DNA of 64,000 bases, taken from positions 114,128 to 178,127 of the forward strand of contig JAAVCK010000017.1 in the NCBI GenBank assembly GCA_014802325.1, in the 5' to 3' direction. The position numbers and the translations under genes are program-made. Below are positions 28,386 through 36,444 of the stretch, piece by piece. Each line of letters begins with the position of its first letter. The stretch's first letter is position 1. The notes under the pieces were generated by a model. That model was not told the DNA's origin. It saw nothing but the letters and a program-made list of their open reading frames with translations, and searched no databases. This stretch comes from Bacteroides sp. Lineage in GTDB: Bacteria; Bacteroidota; Bacteroidia; Bacteroidales; Muribaculaceae.

Positions 28386-29771
28386 ATGAACAATGAATAC
28401 TCCCATAAATGGGATCAATGTCAGCAATTCATTGCCGACAATCTATCGCCAGAGCTGTATAATGCGTGGTTTAAACCCCTGACATTTCACAGCTTCGACA
28501 ACGGAAAATTGGTCATCAATATTCCGTCGCCCTACTTTTACGAGCAGCTTGAGGAGCGATTTCTCAAACTGATCGTAGCCGCGCTCACCAAAGTTTTCGG
28601 TCGCGGCACGCAGCTGTTTTACCACTACAATCAGATCAACAACGAGCCTACCACGGCTGTCACTATGGAGACGTCGCGGCAGTCTACAGCGGTGCGTCCA
28701 CCTCAGGGAGCTACTGCCAATCCCTTTCATCAGGAGCCGCTTCATGATGTGGACTCGCAGCTTAATCCGTCGTATAATTTCGAGAACTACTGCAAGAGCG
28801 AGAGCAACAAAGTGGCCGTGTCGATAGGCGAGGCGATAGCCGACAATCCGAGACTGAAGACATTCAATCCTCTCTTTGTGTGCGGTCCGTGCGGAGTGGG
28901 CAAGACTCATCTCATCCAGGCCATAGGTGTGCGCATTAAGGAGCATAATCCTCAGGCGCGCGTTCTATATATTACCTCCCGACTCTTCCAGAGCCAGTAT
29001 ACCACCGCCGAACATCAGGGTAAGATCAACGATTTCATCACATTTTATCAGGGTATCGACGTGCTGATTATCGACGATATTCAGGACCTTATAGGCAAGA
29101 CCAAGACTCAGAATACATTCTTCCATATATTCAATCACCTCAAGCAGAATCAGAAGCAGCTCATACTTTCGAGCGACTGTCCGCCGGCTCTGATGAAGGG
29201 AATGGAGGAGCGCCTGCTCTCGCGATTCAAGGGTGGCACTACGGTGATGATAGAGCGCCCTGACTACGAGCTGCGTAAAGACGTGCTCAATATGCGTGCA
29301 AGTCAGGACGGACTGAGTATACCACGTGAGGTGATGGACTTCATAGCCTCAAACGTCACCGAAAGCATTCGCGAACTGGAGGGTATAGTGGCGTCGCTTT
29401 TGGCTCACGCCACATTCCTCAATCGCGACATCAACATCGACCTTGCCCGCAATGTGCTGGCCAATGCTGTGAAGATCAACAAGCGTACGCTTAACTTCGA
29501 GGATATCACCCGCCATGTGAGCGACTTCTACAATATCAACCCCGACGATATATTTACCAAGTCGCGCAAACGCGAGATTTCCGATGCCCGTCAGATGGTG
29601 ATGTTTCTCGTGAAAAAGCACACCAAGATGCCCCTCAAGGCAATTGGCGCACGCCTGTCACGCACCCACGCCACTGTGCTCTATGCCTGCAACTCTATAG
29701 AGGAGCGCATACCCATCGACAAAAAACTTCAGGAAGATATAGCTGCTATCGAAAAGGCGATGAAAGAGTGA
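28386..29771 (+). CDS. dnaA: Chromosomal replication initiator DnaA
   Basis: A 461-residue AAA+ initiator. The start MNNEYSHKWDQCQQFIADNL opens domain I; in-frame codons back to 28305 encode a low-complexity AT-rich stretch and are disregarded. After a linker (about residues 90-125), the AAA+ domain carries Walker A CGPCGVGKTH, Walker B VLIIDDIQDL and sensor LSSDCPP. Domain IV has the DNA-binding helix-turn-helix with AIGARLSRTHATVLYACN, a slight variant of the DnaA signature. It is not next to dnaN, as in many Bacteroidota. Confidence 0.97.
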   Translation: MNNEYSHKWDQCQQFIADNLSPELYNAWFKPLTFHSFDNGKLVINIPSPYFYEQLEERFLKLIVAALTKVFGRGTQLFYHYNQINNEPTTAVTMETSRQSTAVRPPQGATANPFHQEPLHDVDSQLNPSYNFENYCKSESNKVAVSIGEAIADNPRLKTFNPLFVCGPCGVGKTHLIQAIGVRIKEHNPQARVLYITSRLFQSQYTTAEHQGKINDFITFYQGIDVLIIDDIQDLIGKTKTQNTFFHIFNHLKQNQKQLILSSDCPPALMKGMEERLLSRFKGGTTVMIERPDYELRKDVLNMRASQDGLSIPREVMDFIASNVTESIRELEGIVASLLAHATFLNRDINIDLARNVLANAVKINKRTLNFEDITRHVSDFYNINPDDIFTKSRKREISDARQMVMFLVKKHTKMPLKAIGARLSRTHATVLYACNSIEERIPIDKKLQEDIAAIEKAMKE

Positions 29772-29802
29772 TGCCATCCTTTCTCTGACTGAGTAGGACG
29801 GC

Positions 29803-29838
29803 AAAAAAAATACCGGGAGCGGTACGGCACCGCCCCCG
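29803..29838 (-). terminator. Terminator of the oxalate operon (after the AEC permease)
   Basis: A 10-bp stem (one A-C mismatch) pairs 29814-29823 with 29829-29838 around a 5-nt loop. On the minus strand it is followed by eight T (A-run 29803-29810). It lies between the convergent dnaA and AEC permease genes and terminates the minus-strand operon; it could also partly stop dnaA transcripts. Confidence 0.85.
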
Positions 29839-29896
29839 ATAAAATCAACGTCAAAACTATTGTTATTTTCGAGCCGTAAAGTATAGCGATAGTTCG

Positions 29897-30883
29897 TTAT
29901 GCGAATGCGTGGATCGCAACATCGGTGAGCCATATCCACAGCGGGCAGAAGCCTACGAAGAGAATCACACTGAGGGTCAGCGATGAAGTACCGGTGGCAA
30001 CGTAAGTATTGTATTCGTCGGCGATGATAATGCCCGAGAAAGCAGGGGGAAGAGCGGCTGCTACTACAAGCATGCGGAGGTTGGGCTCATCCATGTGGAA
30101 GAGAAGACCGAGTGCGAGTACCACTGCGGGCATAACCACCATTTTCATAATCGAGCCGAGGATAGCCTGCCAGTTGAGGGTGACCTTGATTGACGACAGG
30201 GTGATACCGGCCGAGAATACGGCCATTGAAGCGTTGGCTTTGGCGATGAGGTCAAATGAAGGGCTGAGTTTAGCTGACCAAGGTATACCTACGAGTACCC
30301 ATACCACTGCAAGGATAGGAGCCCATGCAACAGGCTGCTTGAGGGCATTCCATACAGGCTTCCAAGCGCTCTGCTTGGCTGCATTGGGATTCTGCTTGGC
30401 AAGGGAGGCATTCATCAGTGAGAGACCTACAGGGATACCGATAGCATTTACCACGATACCTACGATTGCAACCACAAGGGCGACAGCGGTAATGTTGTAT
30501 TCATAAGGTGAAGCGAGGAAGATAGGTTCCAGCACGGCAAATCCGAGGAAGCCGATAGTAGGCGAACCGCTGATAAGGGCTGAAATGGCGGCGTCAGCGC
30601 CGGTATTTTTCTTAAAGCAATACTTGAATACGAAATATACAAGCATGAAGCAGGCCATGATACCGATAGTGGAAACTATAGTAAGCTTGAGGTCTTTCAC
30701 GAGATCCTCGCGCGAAGCCTGTACGATTGATACGAAAAGGGCTGCAGGAAGTGCGAAGTCAAGCACGACCTTATTGAATTTCTTGGCATCGTCACCGGAA
30801 AAAGCACCTTTCTTTCCGGCAATGAAACCGGCAAGCATCACCACGATAATCGGGACGATCGCATATAATATCACATGTTCCAT
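29897..30883 (-). CDS. AEC (auxin efflux carrier) family transporter, candidate oxalate/formate exchanger
   Basis: A 328-residue inner-membrane protein with about ten helices in two inverted halves. The N-terminal half has VPIIVVMLAGFIAGKKG and VLDFALPAALFVSI, including the AEC-typical Asn/Pro breaks. The SGSPTIGFLGFAVLEP segment lies near residue 110, and VVAAALPPAFSGIIIADEYN in the second half is the conserved unwound helix region. AEC proteins move small dicarboxylates such as malate or malonate. It directly follows oxc (85-bp gap) and shares its terminator, so oxalate uptake with formate export is a reasonable inference; the classical antiporter OxlT (an MFS protein) is absent here. Confidence 0.88.
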   Translation of the reverse strand: MEHVILYAIVPIIVVMLAGFIAGKKGAFSGDDAKKFNKVVLDFALPAALFVSIVQASREDLVKDLKLTIVSTIGIMACFMLVYFVFKYCFKKNTGADAAISALISGSPTIGFLGFAVLEPIFLASPYEYNITAVALVVAIVGIVVNAIGIPVGLSLMNASLAKQNPNAAKQSAWKPVWNALKQPVAWAPILAVVWVLVGIPWSAKLSPSFDLIAKANASMAVFSAGITLSSIKVTLNWQAILGSIMKMVVMPAVVLALGLLFHMDEPNLRMLVVAAALPPAFSGIIIADEYNTYVATGTSSLTLSVILFVGFCPLWIWLTDVAIHAFA

Positions 30884-30968
30884 AAAAACGGGAATTAATA
30901 GTTAAAATTACGAGGTAATCTGCCGGGCCGGGAGGCCCGGCAGGGATATTAATGATTAAGCCTGATTA

Positions 30969-32717
30969 TCAGACGGTGTAATCGATAAGAGGTGCGGGGT
31001 TGAGGTAGCCGATGTGGCCTGATTCTTTACCCGAGTCAGCAGCGAGCTGCACATTGATGATGGCAGGAGCCTTGGATGCGATAGCTTCCTTGAGGGCTGC
31101 GTCGAGTTCGTCGGTAGTCGATACGTAGTATCCCTTGCCTCCGAATGTCTCGGCGATCTTCTCGTAGCGTGCGTTGATATCGAGGGTGGTAGGAGCGGGG
31201 GCATCCTTACCTGAGGGATCGACACCGATACCGTTGTAGATACCGCCGTTGTTGAAGATCACTACGGTCACAGGGAGCTTGTAGCGGCAGATTGTTGCGA
31301 CATCCATGCCTGAGAATCCGAATGCCGAGTCACCCATCACGGCTACTACGCTCTTGCCGGTAGATACGGCTGCACCGATGGTAGAACCAATACCCATACC
31401 CATGATTGACCAAGATGCGCAGTCTACGCGGTGGCGGGGAAGCGACATATTTACAGTATCGCGGGTATCATCAAGGGTATTTGCGCCTTCGTTGATGAGG
31501 ATAATATCGGGGTTGGATTCGAGGATAGGTTTGACCACGCTCAGTGCACTCCAGTGGGTCATAGGCTGAAGTTTGGCAGCGTCGGCAAGACGGGCTGCGA
31601 ACTTGGCGTTTTTCTCCTTAGCCTCGGCCTGAAGCGAGGGTACCCAAGTGGGATCAGCCTGAGTCTTGGTCTTTGCAAGACCTTCGAGGATAGCGTCGAG
31701 AGAGAGGTTCATATCACCGACTACAGGCGCGGCGATAGGCACGTTGCGGTCGATTTCGGTGGGCTCAACATCGAGCTGCACGAATTTCATGTCGGGATTC
31801 CACTTGCCACGACCAAATGAGAGCATCCAATTGATACGGGCACCGATCACGATAGTCACGTCGGCCTGCTCCATGATAGTGCTTCTGCAGGAGAGGGCGC
31901 TGAGTTCACCATCATCGGGAAGCACACCCTTGGCCATTGACATGGCGAGGTAAGGAATCTTGTAGGTCTCAACGAGTGTCTTGATCTTGTCTTCGGCCTG
32001 CGCGTAGGCTGCACCCTTACCGAGAAGAATGGCGGGACGCTTGGCATTGGCGATGATTTCCACGGCGCGGGCCACGGAGTCAGCGTTGGGGGCTACGGGC
32101 GAAGCGATGTCGACGGGTTCGTAGAAAAGTTTTTCAGCATCTTCGCGGTTCATGATTTCACCGAGAGCGGGGGTGGTCATGTCGATATATACGCCACCGG
32201 GACGGCCGCTGACAGCTGCGCGATAAGCGCGGGCTACGGCTGCAGGGATATCTTTAGCGTAAGAGCAGCGGAATACTGCTTTCACGAGAGGTCGGGCTGT
32301 GTTAAGCTGGTCAAGCTGCTCGTAAGTGCCTACGTTCATGTCTACCATTGTAGGATCGGAAGCACCCGAAATCTGAATCATAGGATAGCAGTTGACAGTT
32401 GCGTTGGTAGTTGCGGTAAGACCGTTGAGGAAGCCGAGCGAAGATACGGTAAGAAGCACACCCGGAGTCTTGGTGAGATAGCCGTGGGTGGCTGCGGCCA
32501 TACCGGCCTGCTGCTCGAAACGGAAACCGTAATAGTTGATGCCTACTTTCTGCATGGCGTAAGCGGCTTCGGTCACAGGAATACCTACGAGACCATATAC
32601 GTCCATAAGATTGAGTCGGCGGAGAGATTCTGCCAGAATATACATACCGGTCACCTGCTCGGGGAACTGAGGTTTTGCGGCAGGAGTAGCGGCGGGTGTT
32701 GTTGTAGCTGTTGCCAT
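30969..32717 (-). CDS. oxc: Oxalyl-CoA decarboxylase
   Basis: A 582-residue thiamine-diphosphate enzyme converting oxalyl-CoA to formyl-CoA and CO2, consuming a proton. The catalytic Glu is in FRFEQQAG (near residue 68), Tyr-Glu in GTYEQLDQ and Tyr in NNGGIYNG, with the lid Ser in ESGHIGYLN; all match the Oxalobacter formigenes enzyme. The ThDP-Mg motif is GDSAFGFSG...NNGG. LLGKGAAYAQAEDKI and IAAPVVGD are near-identical family blocks. About 20 extra N-terminal residues rich in Ala, Thr and Pro precede the catalytic core. It lies between frc and the AEC permease. Confidence 0.96.
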   Translation of the reverse strand: MATATTTPAATPAAKPQFPEQVTGMYILAESLRRLNLMDVYGLVGIPVTEAAYAMQKVGINYYGFRFEQQAGMAAATHGYLTKTPGVLLTVSSLGFLNGLTATTNATVNCYPMIQISGASDPTMVDMNVGTYEQLDQLNTARPLVKAVFRCSYAKDIPAAVARAYRAAVSGRPGGVYIDMTTPALGEIMNREDAEKLFYEPVDIASPVAPNADSVARAVEIIANAKRPAILLGKGAAYAQAEDKIKTLVETYKIPYLAMSMAKGVLPDDGELSALSCRSTIMEQADVTIVIGARINWMLSFGRGKWNPDMKFVQLDVEPTEIDRNVPIAAPVVGDMNLSLDAILEGLAKTKTQADPTWVPSLQAEAKEKNAKFAARLADAAKLQPMTHWSALSVVKPILESNPDIILINEGANTLDDTRDTVNMSLPRHRVDCASWSIMGMGIGSTIGAAVSTGKSVVAVMGDSAFGFSGMDVATICRYKLPVTVVIFNNGGIYNGIGVDPSGKDAPAPTTLDINARYEKIAETFGGKGYYVSTTDELDAALKEAIASKAPAIINVQLAADSGKESGHIGYLNPAPLIDYTV

Positions 32718-32764
32718 AATAGTTTGTTTTTTTTGTTCTTGTAAGTTGAAGTGAGTTATATTTT

Positions 32765-32772
32765 CAAATATA
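32765..32772 (-). promoter_or_regulatory. -7 element candidate upstream of oxc
   Basis: TATATTTG on the minus strand lies 47 bp before the oxc ATG, directly after the frc-oxc hairpin, which suggests that oxc and the permease can be transcribed separately from frc. No clear -33 TTTG was seen. Confidence 0.45.
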
Positions 32773-32773
32773 A

Positions 32774-32809
32774 AGCGGCTTGCGAGAATGCTTTCAGTCG
32801 CAAGCCGCT
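32774..32809 (-). terminator. Hairpin between frc and oxc, attenuator or terminator
   Basis: AGCGGCTTGCGA (32774-32785) and TCGCAAGCCGCT (32798-32809) form a perfect 12-bp stem with a 12-nt loop. On the minus strand it is followed by TTATATTTG, a weak T-tract that doubles as a possible -7 element. It could trim transcription after frc. Confidence 0.65.
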
Positions 32810-32839
32810 CTGTGTGTTCCGATAGTTAACGGAAAGGAA

Positions 32840-34150
32840 TTACATCGTGCCGTTGGCAAGGGGTTCGGTAGTACCGTTCTTGGCCATCTCAGCCTGCTGT
32901 TCGGCGGTGTAACCGAGGGCGGTAAGCACTTCTGCGGTATTTTCACCGAGGGCAGGTGCAGGACCGTAGGTAGGCTGATAGTTAGACATTGTGAAAGGAC
33001 ATCCTACAGTGACAAATTCACCGATTTCGCCACCCTGATTGATGCGGACGAGGGTATTGCCGTCGTAGAGCGATTCATCGGTCATGATTTCCTTGGTAGA
33101 GAGCACAGGACCTACAGGAACGCCTGCCTTGCCGAGGATATCGGTAACCTCAAATTTGGTCTTGTCGGCAGTCCACTGACCGATACGGGCGTAGATTTCC
33201 TGTTTGTGGCGGTCACGGGCGTCGGCGGTGTTGAAGTCGGGGTTGGTAAGCCAATCCTGGAAACCGACTGCGTTGCAGAAGAGCTCGAAGTCTTTGGCAC
33301 CACGCTGAAGGATGATGTATACGTAGTTGTTAGCGTCAACTTCTGTATCGTAGCCACCGGCAGGCTTACATTTATAAGTCCATCCGAGCACGCCACCACC
33401 TTCGATGTTACCGGCGCGGGGCACACAGTCGCCAAACTTACCGTCAGGATACTGAGGGAACTGAGTAAGATAACCGATCTTATCGAGCGTGAGCTGGTCA
33501 CGGGTCTTGATACGGCAGAGGTTAAGACATGCGTTGTGCATTGACTGATATACATATACGCCTTCACCTGTCTTTTCACGCTGCATAAGTGCTGCAAGAA
33601 GACCGATCAGAAGGTGCATACCGGTATTTGAGTCACCGAGAGCCGCACCGCTCTGAGTAGGAATGTTGGCGGGACCTTCGTACATACCTGTGGTGGAAGC
33701 CGCAGCTGCAGTCACCTGTGCTACAGGTTCGTAAGCCTTGAGGTTAGCGTATTTTGAAGATACAGGGAAGCCCTTGATTGTACCGTAGATACAGCGGGGG
33801 TTGAGAGCGTGAACAGCCTCCCAGCTGAATCCGAGCTTATCCATAGCTCCGGGATGAAGGTTTTCTACGAAGATATCGGCTTCCTTGATAAGTTTTGTGA
33901 GCACTTCCTTGCCGTCGGGAGTCTTGGCGTCAAGTGTAAGTGATTTTTTGTCGGAATTAAGCTGAAGGTAATAGTAGCTGGGCAGATCAGGATTAAACTG
34001 AAGTTCTTTACGGGTGGCGTCGCCTACGCCGGGACGCTCTATCTTGATCACATCTGCGCCCAGCCATGCGAGCATCTGGGTACATGAAGGTCCAGACTGT
34101 ACTTCAGTGAAGTCTACTACTTTAATTCCTTGTAACGGTGCGGTGTTCAT
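32840..34150 (-). CDS. frc: Formyl-CoA:oxalate CoA-transferase (class III CoA-transferase)
   Basis: A 436-residue interlocked-dimer CoA-transferase that activates oxalate to oxalyl-CoA. The start MNTAPLQGIKVVDF is preferred over upstream codons, which are AT-rich leader. The catalytic Asp is in GAALGDSNTGMH (residue 173), and Gln18 and the VIKIERPGVGDATR block match the O. formigenes enzyme. Two loops differ: the position of Trp48 in that enzyme is Glu49 here (TRKELQ), and the glycine loop reads EGGGVLG instead of GGGGQPG. CoA-donor preference may therefore differ. Pairing with oxc makes an oxalate role very likely. Confidence 0.9.
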   Translation of the reverse strand: MNTAPLQGIKVVDFTEVQSGPSCTQMLAWLGADVIKIERPGVGDATRKELQFNPDLPSYYYLQLNSDKKSLTLDAKTPDGKEVLTKLIKEADIFVENLHPGAMDKLGFSWEAVHALNPRCIYGTIKGFPVSSKYANLKAYEPVAQVTAAAASTTGMYEGPANIPTQSGAALGDSNTGMHLLIGLLAALMQREKTGEGVYVYQSMHNACLNLCRIKTRDQLTLDKIGYLTQFPQYPDGKFGDCVPRAGNIEGGGVLGWTYKCKPAGGYDTEVDANNYVYIILQRGAKDFELFCNAVGFQDWLTNPDFNTADARDRHKQEIYARIGQWTADKTKFEVTDILGKAGVPVGPVLSTKEIMTDESLYDGNTLVRINQGGEIGEFVTVGCPFTMSNYQPTYGPAPALGENTAEVLTALGYTAEQQAEMAKNGTTEPLANGTM

Positions 34151-34233
34151 AACTTGTTTGTTTTTTGTTAGTTTTTGATGTTGTTTGTAAATAAAACACA
34201 TCTCGGCGGGAAATGGTTAATTAAAATAATGTT

Positions 34234-34272
34234 AAAAAACACCAGACGCGTTGCATAGCTGCAACGCGTCTG
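34234..34272 (-). terminator. mutB intrinsic terminator
   Basis: CAGACGCGTTGCA (34243-34255) and TGCAACGCGTCTG (34260-34272) form a perfect 13-bp stem with a 4-nt loop. On the minus strand it is followed by GGTGTTTTTTAA. It separates the mutase operon from frc. Confidence 0.92.
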
Positions 34273-34308
34273 TATATTAAAAATGTATAGCAGAGATAAG
34301 CGGAGTGC

Positions 34309-36444
34309 TTACTCGGCGTCGTTAAGAATCTCAAGCATCTTGATGGCCGAGGTGGGGATGCGGGTACCGGGGCCGAAGATAGCTGCTACGCCTGCACGAT
34401 AGAGGAAGTCGTAGTCCTGCGCGGGAATCACACCGCCGGCAGTAACGAGTATATCCTCGCGGCCGAGCTTCTTAAGCTCGTCGATAACCTGCGGGATGAG
34501 GGTCTTGTGTCCGGCAGCGAGCGATGATACGCCGAGTATATCCACGTCGTTTTCCATAGCCATGCGGGCTGCCTCGGCAGGAGTCTGGAAGAGCGGTCCC
34601 ATATCTACGTCAAATCCGCAGTCGGCATAGCCGGTAGCTACAACCTTAGCGCCGCGGTCGTGGCCGTCCTGGCCCATCTTGGCAATCATGATACGGGGCT
34701 GGCGACCTTCGCGCTTGGCGAATTCTTCGGTCATTTCGCGGGCTTTGAGGAAGTCGGGGTCCTTCTTGGTTTCTTCGGAATACACGCCTGAGATAGTTTT
34801 GATTACTGCTTTATAACGTCCTACTACTTCTTCGCAGGCATCGGAGATCTCGCCCAGAGTGGCGCGGACGCCGGCTGCCTTCACTGCAAGGTCGAGGAGG
34901 TTGCCTTCGCCTGTGCGCACACATTCGGTGATGGCCTTGAGGGCTTCCTTGACGGCATTTTCGTCGCGGTGAGCTTTAAGGTCTACAAGGCGAGCCACCT
35001 GGTCCTTGCGCACTTCGGTATTGTCGATTTCGAGGATGTCGATAGGATCTTCGTGGTCGAGACGATATTTGTTAATACCCACGATGGTCTGACGGCCTGA
35101 GTCGATACGGGCCTGGGTGCGAGCGGATGCTTCTTCGATACGCATCTTGGGCAGACCTGACTCGATGGCCTTGGCCATACCGCCGAGTTTCTCGATTTCC
35201 TGAATGTGATCCCATGCGCGGCGGGCTATCTCATCGGTGAGAGCTTCCACGTAGTACGATCCACCCCAGGGGTCAACCTGCTTGGTGACCATGGTCTCTT
35301 CCTGGATATAGATCTGAGTGTTGCGGGCAATACGGGCAGAGAAGTCGGTGGGGAGGGCGATGGCTTCGTCGAGAGCGTTGGTGTGGAGCGACTGAGTGTG
35401 ACCCAGAGCTGCTCCCATAGCCTCGATACAGGTACGGCCTACGTTGTTGAAGGGATCCTGCTCGGTGAGCGACCATCCTGAAGTCTGCGAGTGGGTGCGG
35501 AGGGCGAGCGATTTGGGGTTCTTGGGGTTGAACTGCTTCACGATCTTGGCCCAGAGCAGACGGGCGGCACGCATCTTGGCTACTTCCATGAAGTAGTTCA
35601 TGCCGATAGCCCAGAAGAACGACAAGCGGGGAGCGAAAGCGTCGATGTCGATACCGGCGTTGATACCTGCGCGGAGATATTCAAGACCATCGGCCAGAGT
35701 GTAGGCCAGCTCGATGTCGCAGGTTGCGCCTGCTTCCTGCATGTGGTAGCCCGAGATGGAGATAGAGTTGAACTTGGGCATATTCTGCGAGGTATACTCG
35801 AATATGTCGGCGATAATTCGCATCGAGAATTCAGGCGGATATATATATGTGTTGCGCACCATGAATTCCTTGAGAATATCGTTCTGGATGGTACCGGCCA
35901 TTTCTTCGAGCTTGGCACCCTGTTCGAGACCGGCATTGATATAGAAGGCGAGCACGGGGAGCACGGCGCCGTTCATGGTCATTGATACCGACATCTTGTT
36001 CAAGGGTATACCCTCAAAGAGCACTTTCATGTCTTCGAGCGAGCAGATCGACACACCTGCTTTACCCACGTCGCCTACCACGCGCTCGTGGTCAGCGTCG
36101 TAGCCGCGGTGTGTGGCAAGGTCAAATGCTACAGACAGACCCTTCTGACCCGACGCGAGGTTGCGGCGGTAGAAGGCGTTGGACTCGGCTGCAGTGGAGA
36201 ATCCGGCATACTGGCGGATGGTCCAGGGACGCAGAGGATACATGGCGCTGTACGGGCCACGCAGGAAGGGAGGAATACCTGACACATAGTTGAGATGCTC
36301 AAGTCCTTCGAGATCTTCCTTGGTATATACGGGTTTAACGGGGATGCGCTCGGGGGTGAGCCATTCTTCCCCGGCAGCCTGGGGTGCCTTGAAGTCACCG
36401 AATGCGTCTTTGACTATATCGATATGTTTAAAATCGGGTTTCAT
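34309..36444 (-). CDS. mutB: Methylmalonyl-CoA mutase large (alpha) subunit
   Basis: A 711-residue adenosylcobalamin enzyme interconverting succinyl-CoA and methylmalonyl-CoA, a step to propionate in Bacteroidota. The N-terminal TIM barrel has [21 protein letters not shown] and [17 protein letters not shown]; the C-terminal about 130 residues are the B12-binding domain with [12 protein letters not shown] (the cobalt-ligating His) and GVSSLAAGH. It follows mutA with a 24-bp gap and ends at a strong terminator. No epimerase, decarboxylase or meaB chaperone lies in the window. Confidence 0.98.

Follow-up and report, generated by a model that had tools for sequence, protein, structure and literature searches.

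Linkage of frc, oxc and a YfdV-like AEC carrier in a putative oxalate-degradation module of the Muribaculaceae

A three-gene locus for the breakdown of oxalate lies within a 64-kb stretch of DNA (64,000 nt, hereafter the window) from a Bacteroides sp. that is classified in the Muribaculaceae, comprising positions 114,128 to 178,127 of contig JAAVCK010000017.1 in assembly GCA_014802325.1, which totals 2.34 Mb and is 91% complete. As the initial annotation had described, frc, oxc and a gene for an AEC-family carrier follow one another on the minus strand, and all three open reading frames are intact, with spacers of 122 nt between frc and oxc and 85 nt between oxc and the AEC gene. With a probability of roughly 0.8, we read the locus as a complete CoA-dependent oxalate-degradation module with the AEC protein as its oxalate carrier, in which exchange and energy gain are possible. 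The outer neighbours are methylmalonyl-CoA mutase genes upstream and a DnaA-like gene downstream, and the features of the locus are as follows.

34243..34272, minus strand: terminator-like site that separates frc from the methylmalonyl-CoA mutase genes lying upstream (13-pair stem and T-run)
32840..34150, minus strand: frc, formyl-CoA:oxalate CoA-transferase, 436 aa (TIGR03253; identity to E. coli YfdW; catalytic residue D173)
32772..32811 (about), minus strand: hairpin in the frc–oxc spacer (z = -6.3)
32765..32772, minus strand: TATATTTG, a match to the Bacteroides -7 consensus, unconserved and without a -33 element
30969..32717, minus strand: oxc, oxalyl-CoA decarboxylase, a thiamine pyrophosphate (TPP) enzyme of 582 aa (NF006721; active-site residues retained)
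30920..30943 (about), minus strand: 10-bp hairpin in the oxc–AEC spacer, without a T-run (spacer z = -3.4)
29897..30883, minus strand: AEC-family carrier, YfdV-like, most likely the oxalate transporter, 328 aa (PF03547, NF007384, identity to YfdV)
29811..29841, minus strand: terminator-like site after the AEC gene, closing the module (14-pair stem and T-run)

The association of the three genes extends well beyond this genome. Among 198 family genomes, evenly drawn from a larger group and labelled Muribaculaceae from Duncaniella, a member of that family, as the nearest named record, 118 carried frc, 120 carried oxc and 122 carried a YfdV-like AEC gene; all three were present in 118 genomes, none in 76 and an incomplete set in four. 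Matches to frc were taken at a threshold of E 1e-100, and the oxc count, among the matches listed, retains those of at least 225 bits and excludes full-length TPP enzymes at about 219 bits and below, which were taken as acetolactate-synthase-like. Two of the incomplete sets consist of partial matches to the AEC gene alone (G047 and G134), one of them at the very start of its contig and the other in a genome that is 56% complete, while the remaining two hold oxc and the AEC gene without frc (G067, 71% complete, and G174, in which oxc is cut at the contig start). The initial annotation had proposed a search for the frc-oxc-AEC order in other Muribaculaceae, and this order and strand recur on a single contig in 111 of the 118 trio genomes, one gene being on a different contig in the other seven. 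Co-occurrence spans 18 of the 30 genera sampled. A second collection, which overlaps the first in genomes, yielded 80 AEC loci, 69 of them with the full order; in the remaining 11, frc and/or oxc is absent or incomplete at a contig end.

The genes that flank the trio are not shared in this way. MutB precedes frc at a single locus, L066, in a set where 44 of 69 loci extend at least 1500 nt beyond frc. DnaA was not found downstream of the AEC gene at any locus, L066 included, with at least 1800 nt of sequence available on that side in 70 of 80 loci. L066, from a Duncaniella metagenome-assembled genome, is the nearest named record and its AEC protein is identical to that of the window; the two DNAs are 92% identical over 5.6 kb and collinear from the L066 contig end to window position 29803, where collinearity breaks immediately beyond the module terminator. 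Because presence is all-or-none while the outer neighbours vary, the trio is retained and lost as a block.

Both enzymes are recognised by curated models, Frc above its cut-off and Oxc above one of two. Frc scores 576 bits against TIGR03253, above the cut-off of 504, and is 54.6% identical to E. coli Frc/YfdW, which is also its closest solved structure. Its equivalent of the catalytic aspartate, which we take to be Asp169, is D173, and this position is aspartate in 90 of 90 aligned Frc rows, where 61 of 69 proteins from the second contig collection and 27 panel matches had passed length and no-stop filters. Oxc, whose closest solved structure is an oxalyl-CoA decarboxylase, scores 763 bits against NF006721 (cut-off 557) and 722.5 bits against TIGR03254, slightly under the cut-off of 739.4. 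For its active site we assumed the Oxalobacter list of E56, Y120, E121, Y483, S553 and R555. The first five of these are conserved at every resolved residue across 100 rows, the alignment having one X at E56 and one X at Y120, and the presumed R555 position is histidine in the window protein, as in E. coli. In the pathway that these assignments complete, oxalate would cross the inner membrane via the YfdV-like AEC carrier, Frc would move CoA from formyl-CoA to oxalate to give oxalyl-CoA, and Oxc would convert this to formyl-CoA and CO2 with the consumption of one proton; formate would then leave via the AEC carrier in exchange and/or through a separate FNT channel.

The active-site loop of Frc departs from that of the solved enzymes. 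The window protein lacks the GGGGQP glycine loop of the E. coli, Acetobacter and Oxalobacter structures (3ubm is presumably the A. aceti enzyme) and carries EGGGVL instead (residues 249–257, window positions 33406–33380). All 89 Muribaculaceae rows read EG(G/S)GVL, with E, V and L invariant, and residue 49 is glutamate in all 87 rows that hold a residue there, at the position that we take to be Trp48 in Oxalobacter and Gln48 in E. coli. The loop varies in other accepted Frc proteins too, being SGGGQP in four plasmid-borne ones, and since the curated TIGR03253 score is passed the deviation is regarded as variation within the Frc family. The Muribaculaceae loop marks a gut subgroup of Frc that may differ in donor use or kinetics.

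The carrier itself belongs to the AEC family, its sole Pfam match being PF03547 at 175 bits (gathering cut-off 25.7) over residues 5–317, a full-length domain, and it is the only AEC match across the assembly. Its best NCBIfam model is 'transporter YfdV' (NF007384), at 296 bits against a cut-off of 404 that no protein in the 198 family genomes passed. With the score under this cut-off, the carrier is described as YfdV-like rather than as a YfdV equivalog, although it is 48% identical to E. coli YfdV. An alignment of 49 of 52 family proteins with those of the window and E. coli contains 95 invariant columns, and was put to no further use. Three records bear the titles Lachnospiraceae, Pseudoflavonifractor and Clostridiales (L113, L117 and L122), yet their AEC proteins are 83–84% identical to that of the window; the title of at least L117 looks mislabelled.

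The initial annotation proposed that the AEC protein replaces OxlT in an oxalate-to-formate module, and this proposal gains support from the near-constant linkage just described and from the lack of any match to the established carrier. The OxlT model TIGR04259 has no match in the assembly at E<=0.001, while the same model matches 14 of 14 control genomes, and the OFA model TIGR00890 has none there at E<=1e-20; an OxlT homologue elsewhere in the assembly, which had been named as a finding that would contradict the proposal, was thereby sought and none matched. No OFA protein exceeds the cut-off in any of the 198 family genomes, and weak matches of about 80 bits occur in five, the genome of the window not among them. 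As the AEC gene is linked to frc–oxc and OxlT and OFA were not found in the assembly, the evidence supports a role for its product as a dedicated oxalate carrier.

It is probable that the AEC protein imports oxalate in some form, whether one-way or in exchange. The version rated highest, at slightly less than an even chance, is a one-way importer (uniport or H+-coupled), with formate leaving through FNT or by diffusion and the module serving detoxification or acid tolerance with no energy conservation. The genome of the window encodes a single FNT-family formate channel (G000:C14:89697-90437; L064), and FNT is positively associated with the trio, being found in 78 of 118 trio genomes as against 24 of the 76 without it (Fisher p 4e-6, uncorrected for relatedness). 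One-way import also agrees with the E. coli yfdXWUVE genes, which, according to the accessible text of PMC3720670, are controlled by EvgA and aid oxalate-induced acid tolerance, YfdV being secondary. However, the FNT gene lies on contig C14 and the trio on C17, FNT genes occur in those 24 genomes without a trio, and many trio genomes have none: 40 of 118 lack a strong match (at least 140 bits), and 16 of these, each at least 95% complete, have no FNT-like match. FNT was rejected as an obligate partner of the trio. By eye, the neighbours of the FNT gene in the genome of the window resemble purine-biosynthesis and phospholipid genes.

Those 16 near-complete genomes, in which another exit for formate is needed because no FNT-like protein was matched, favour instead a true oxalate2-/formate1- exchanger that replaces OxlT and through which the module would generate proton motive force. 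Consistent with this are the linkage of the carrier to frc–oxc, the failure to find OxlT or OFA in the assembly and the lack of a match to formate–tetrahydrofolate ligase (PF01268) in the 91%-complete assembly. Nevertheless, we consider exchange rather unlikely: FNT is commoner in trio genomes, that of the window included, than in those without the trio, G086, G100 and G159, among the 16 without FNT, each encode one of the weakly OFA-like proteins (about 80 bits), and formic acid can diffuse across membranes without a carrier. In addition, according to the accessible text of PMC3720670, E. coli shows no detectable oxalate/formate antiport. That the protein moves another acid, such as malonate or malate, and adjoins oxc incidentally is very unlikely, for although AEC family members have several substrates and the score falls under the YfdV cut-off in all 122 matching genomes, co-occurrence is near-perfect over 18 of 30 genera, adjacency persists while the outer neighbours change, and the order is identical in E. 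coli and Cetobacterium.

A number of points weigh against the assignment of the AEC protein as the oxalate carrier of a working module. E. coli YfdV is still listed as uncharacterized in a 2024 table (PMC10971958, accessible part), and a literature search, mostly of open-access text, showed no transport assay for YfdV or its AEC subgroup; likewise, nothing on a carrier was found in the accessible text of a paper on L. paragasseri. A structure model of the AEC protein, built from 14 sequences that are 82–95% identical to that of the window, failed, with a predicted local distance difference test (pLDDT) score of 43.7, so that it was not used and no binding-site argument is made. For Frc, the altered active-site loop means that kinetics are not transferable from the E. 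coli or Oxalobacter enzymes.

The all-or-none linkage of three genes in 118 genomes predicts a substrate for YfdV-type AEC proteins. The trio thereby provides a good way into a family of orphan transporters, and its FNT-free members are suited to the question of exchange. A more far-reaching proposal, which we hold to be improbable, is that YfdV-like AEC carriers arose separately from OxlT as exchangers of oxalate for formate, that dietary oxalate supplies Muribaculaceae free of FNT and OFA with proton motive force, and that the Frc with its own loop is tuned to this gut cycle, which would be shared with plasmid-bearing Fusobacteria.

The occurrence of the trio with its adjacent permease in Muribaculaceae is, in the main part, already known, since Ormerod et al. 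2016 (PMC4936053) described the genes, the adjoining permease and their joint absence in this family (as S24-7, 'Ca. Homeothermaceae'). The accessible text of that study reports the frc and oxc pair from 19 of 30 genomes; in all 19 a permease adjoins oxc, and genomes without the pair lack it. That same text neither calls the permease AEC or YfdV-like nor raises the exchange hypothesis. It further states that these bacteria are likely to require another carbon source, and growth on oxalate alone is not expected here, unlike in Oxalobacter formigenes. From what is accessible of Lagkouvardos 2019 (PMC6381624), the two enzymes, an uncharacterized K07088 protein and a formate transporter are family-specific and oxc is widespread. 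Frc and Oxc from Bacteroidetes have been reported in a mouse faecal metaproteome (PMC5348496), and Muribaculaceae oxc in human metagenomes (PMC8062136), each according to the accessible portion of the source. As Muribaculaceae are numerous in the gut of rodents, and most kidney stones consist of calcium oxalate, the identity of the carrier that feeds their pathway matters for host oxalate balance. K07088 is taken here to denote an AEC permease. The details added by the present analysis are the gene order on Cetobacterium plasmids and the altered Frc loop in all 89 aligned family proteins.

Compared with known systems, the module shares its two enzymes and its pathway with Frc-Oxc-OxlT of O. 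formigenes but not its carrier, OxlT being an MFS/OFA protein whereas the window protein is of the AEC family and falls outside MFS/OFA. Closer in arrangement is E. coli K-12, where the locus reads yfdX-frc-oxc-yfdV-yfdE; the yfdXWUVE genes thus have the same frc-oxc-yfdV order, and the Frc, Oxc and AEC proteins are 55, 50 and 48% identical to those of the window. The window trio differs in having no adjoining yfdX or yfdE, longer, hairpin-bearing spacers and the altered Frc loop. The same frc-oxc-AEC order is also found on two plasmids of Cetobacterium somerae (L147 and L148; 128 and 137 kb), with identities to the window of 62% for Frc, which makes this the nearest Frc among plasmid records, 50% for Oxc and 52% for AEC; the Cetobacterium Frc loop is EGGQVLGW as against EG(G/S)GVLGW in Muribaculaceae. 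Upstream of the trio in this fish-associated Fusobacterium lie a cupin gene and genes of a two-component system.

In a Frc tree of 26 rows, the Muribaculaceae form one clade (100/100) that is joined by Cetobacterium (100/100) and next by E. coli. The Oxc tree likewise places the Muribaculaceae together (100/100), with the placement of Cetobacterium relative to E. coli not resolved. A donor cannot be named because the comparison set consists of E. coli and plasmid-borne genes only. Among 395 sampled Bacteroidota genomes, frc was found only in that of the window; the sample has 21 genomes itemised, none other of the same family, and 374 without a match that are not itemised. On other plasmids the carrier varies: in Acetobacter pomorum about 4.7 kb, including a transposase, separate frc-oxc-yfdE from an AEC gene upstream, and the carrier near frc on a Streptomyces plasmid is an OFA-family MFS protein rather than AEC. 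Neither carrier is annotated within about 5 kb of the frc loci of Azospirillum, Ancylobacter and Methylobacterium, and the Cupriavidus frc locus carries no annotation.

The initial annotation treated the three genes as one unit, the last two sharing a terminator. The terminator-like site after the AEC gene is indeed present, but a single unit is unproved because both spacers hold hairpins, the second of which, between oxc and AEC, had been overlooked. A terminator scan of 29700-34500 returned five sites where shuffled sequence gave 3.5 (sd 1.8) and, as the whole scan does not rise above the shuffles, weight is placed only on the two long gene-end stems. No Rfam family matches within 29700-34400.

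The frc–oxc hairpin, whose z-score was obtained against 100 dinucleotide shuffles, has counterparts across the family. From a panel of 31 loci (the window's own and the 30 best-scoring oxc loci), two were dropped as having frc on another contig, and 26 of the 29 left fold at z <= -2 in this spacer, with mostly unrelated sequences; the three without a fold have the shortest spacers, of 58, 38 and 28 nt. Within this panel the oxc–AEC spacer folds at 17 of 30 loci, and at 29 of 52 overall (spacers under 25 nt counted as hairpin-free, one of 53 loci lost), and the 120 nt downstream of AEC fold in 43 of 52. RNA structure therefore recurs downstream of frc in this panel, which was composed of trio loci only. 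Read most simply, the frc–oxc stem would act as a leaky terminator or stabilise the mRNA, and would thereby adjust the expression of frc relative to oxc–AEC.

The box TATATTTG, which directly follows this hairpin, was judged against what we take to be the Bacteroides -7 consensus. Neither TTTG nor TTG was found 15-29 nt upstream of it, and when the spacer was shuffled by mononucleotide, 2.3% of the shuffles held a match of this type. It was rejected as a conserved promoter, TAnnTTTG occurring in only three of 29 frc–oxc spacers and at unrelated positions. The earlier suggestion that the two halves of the module are unevenly expressed consequently stays plausible on the basis of the hairpin, and loses the -7 box as a basis.

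Across genomes, the frc–oxc spacers of two sets of loci (L016, L019, L021, L025, L030 and L031; L018, L022 and L023) share long, similar palindromes, of the type AGTTTTTAGTTGTT...AACAACTAAAAACT and of a second type. By eye, these shared palindromes look like a dispersed palindromic element inserted in the frc–oxc spacer.

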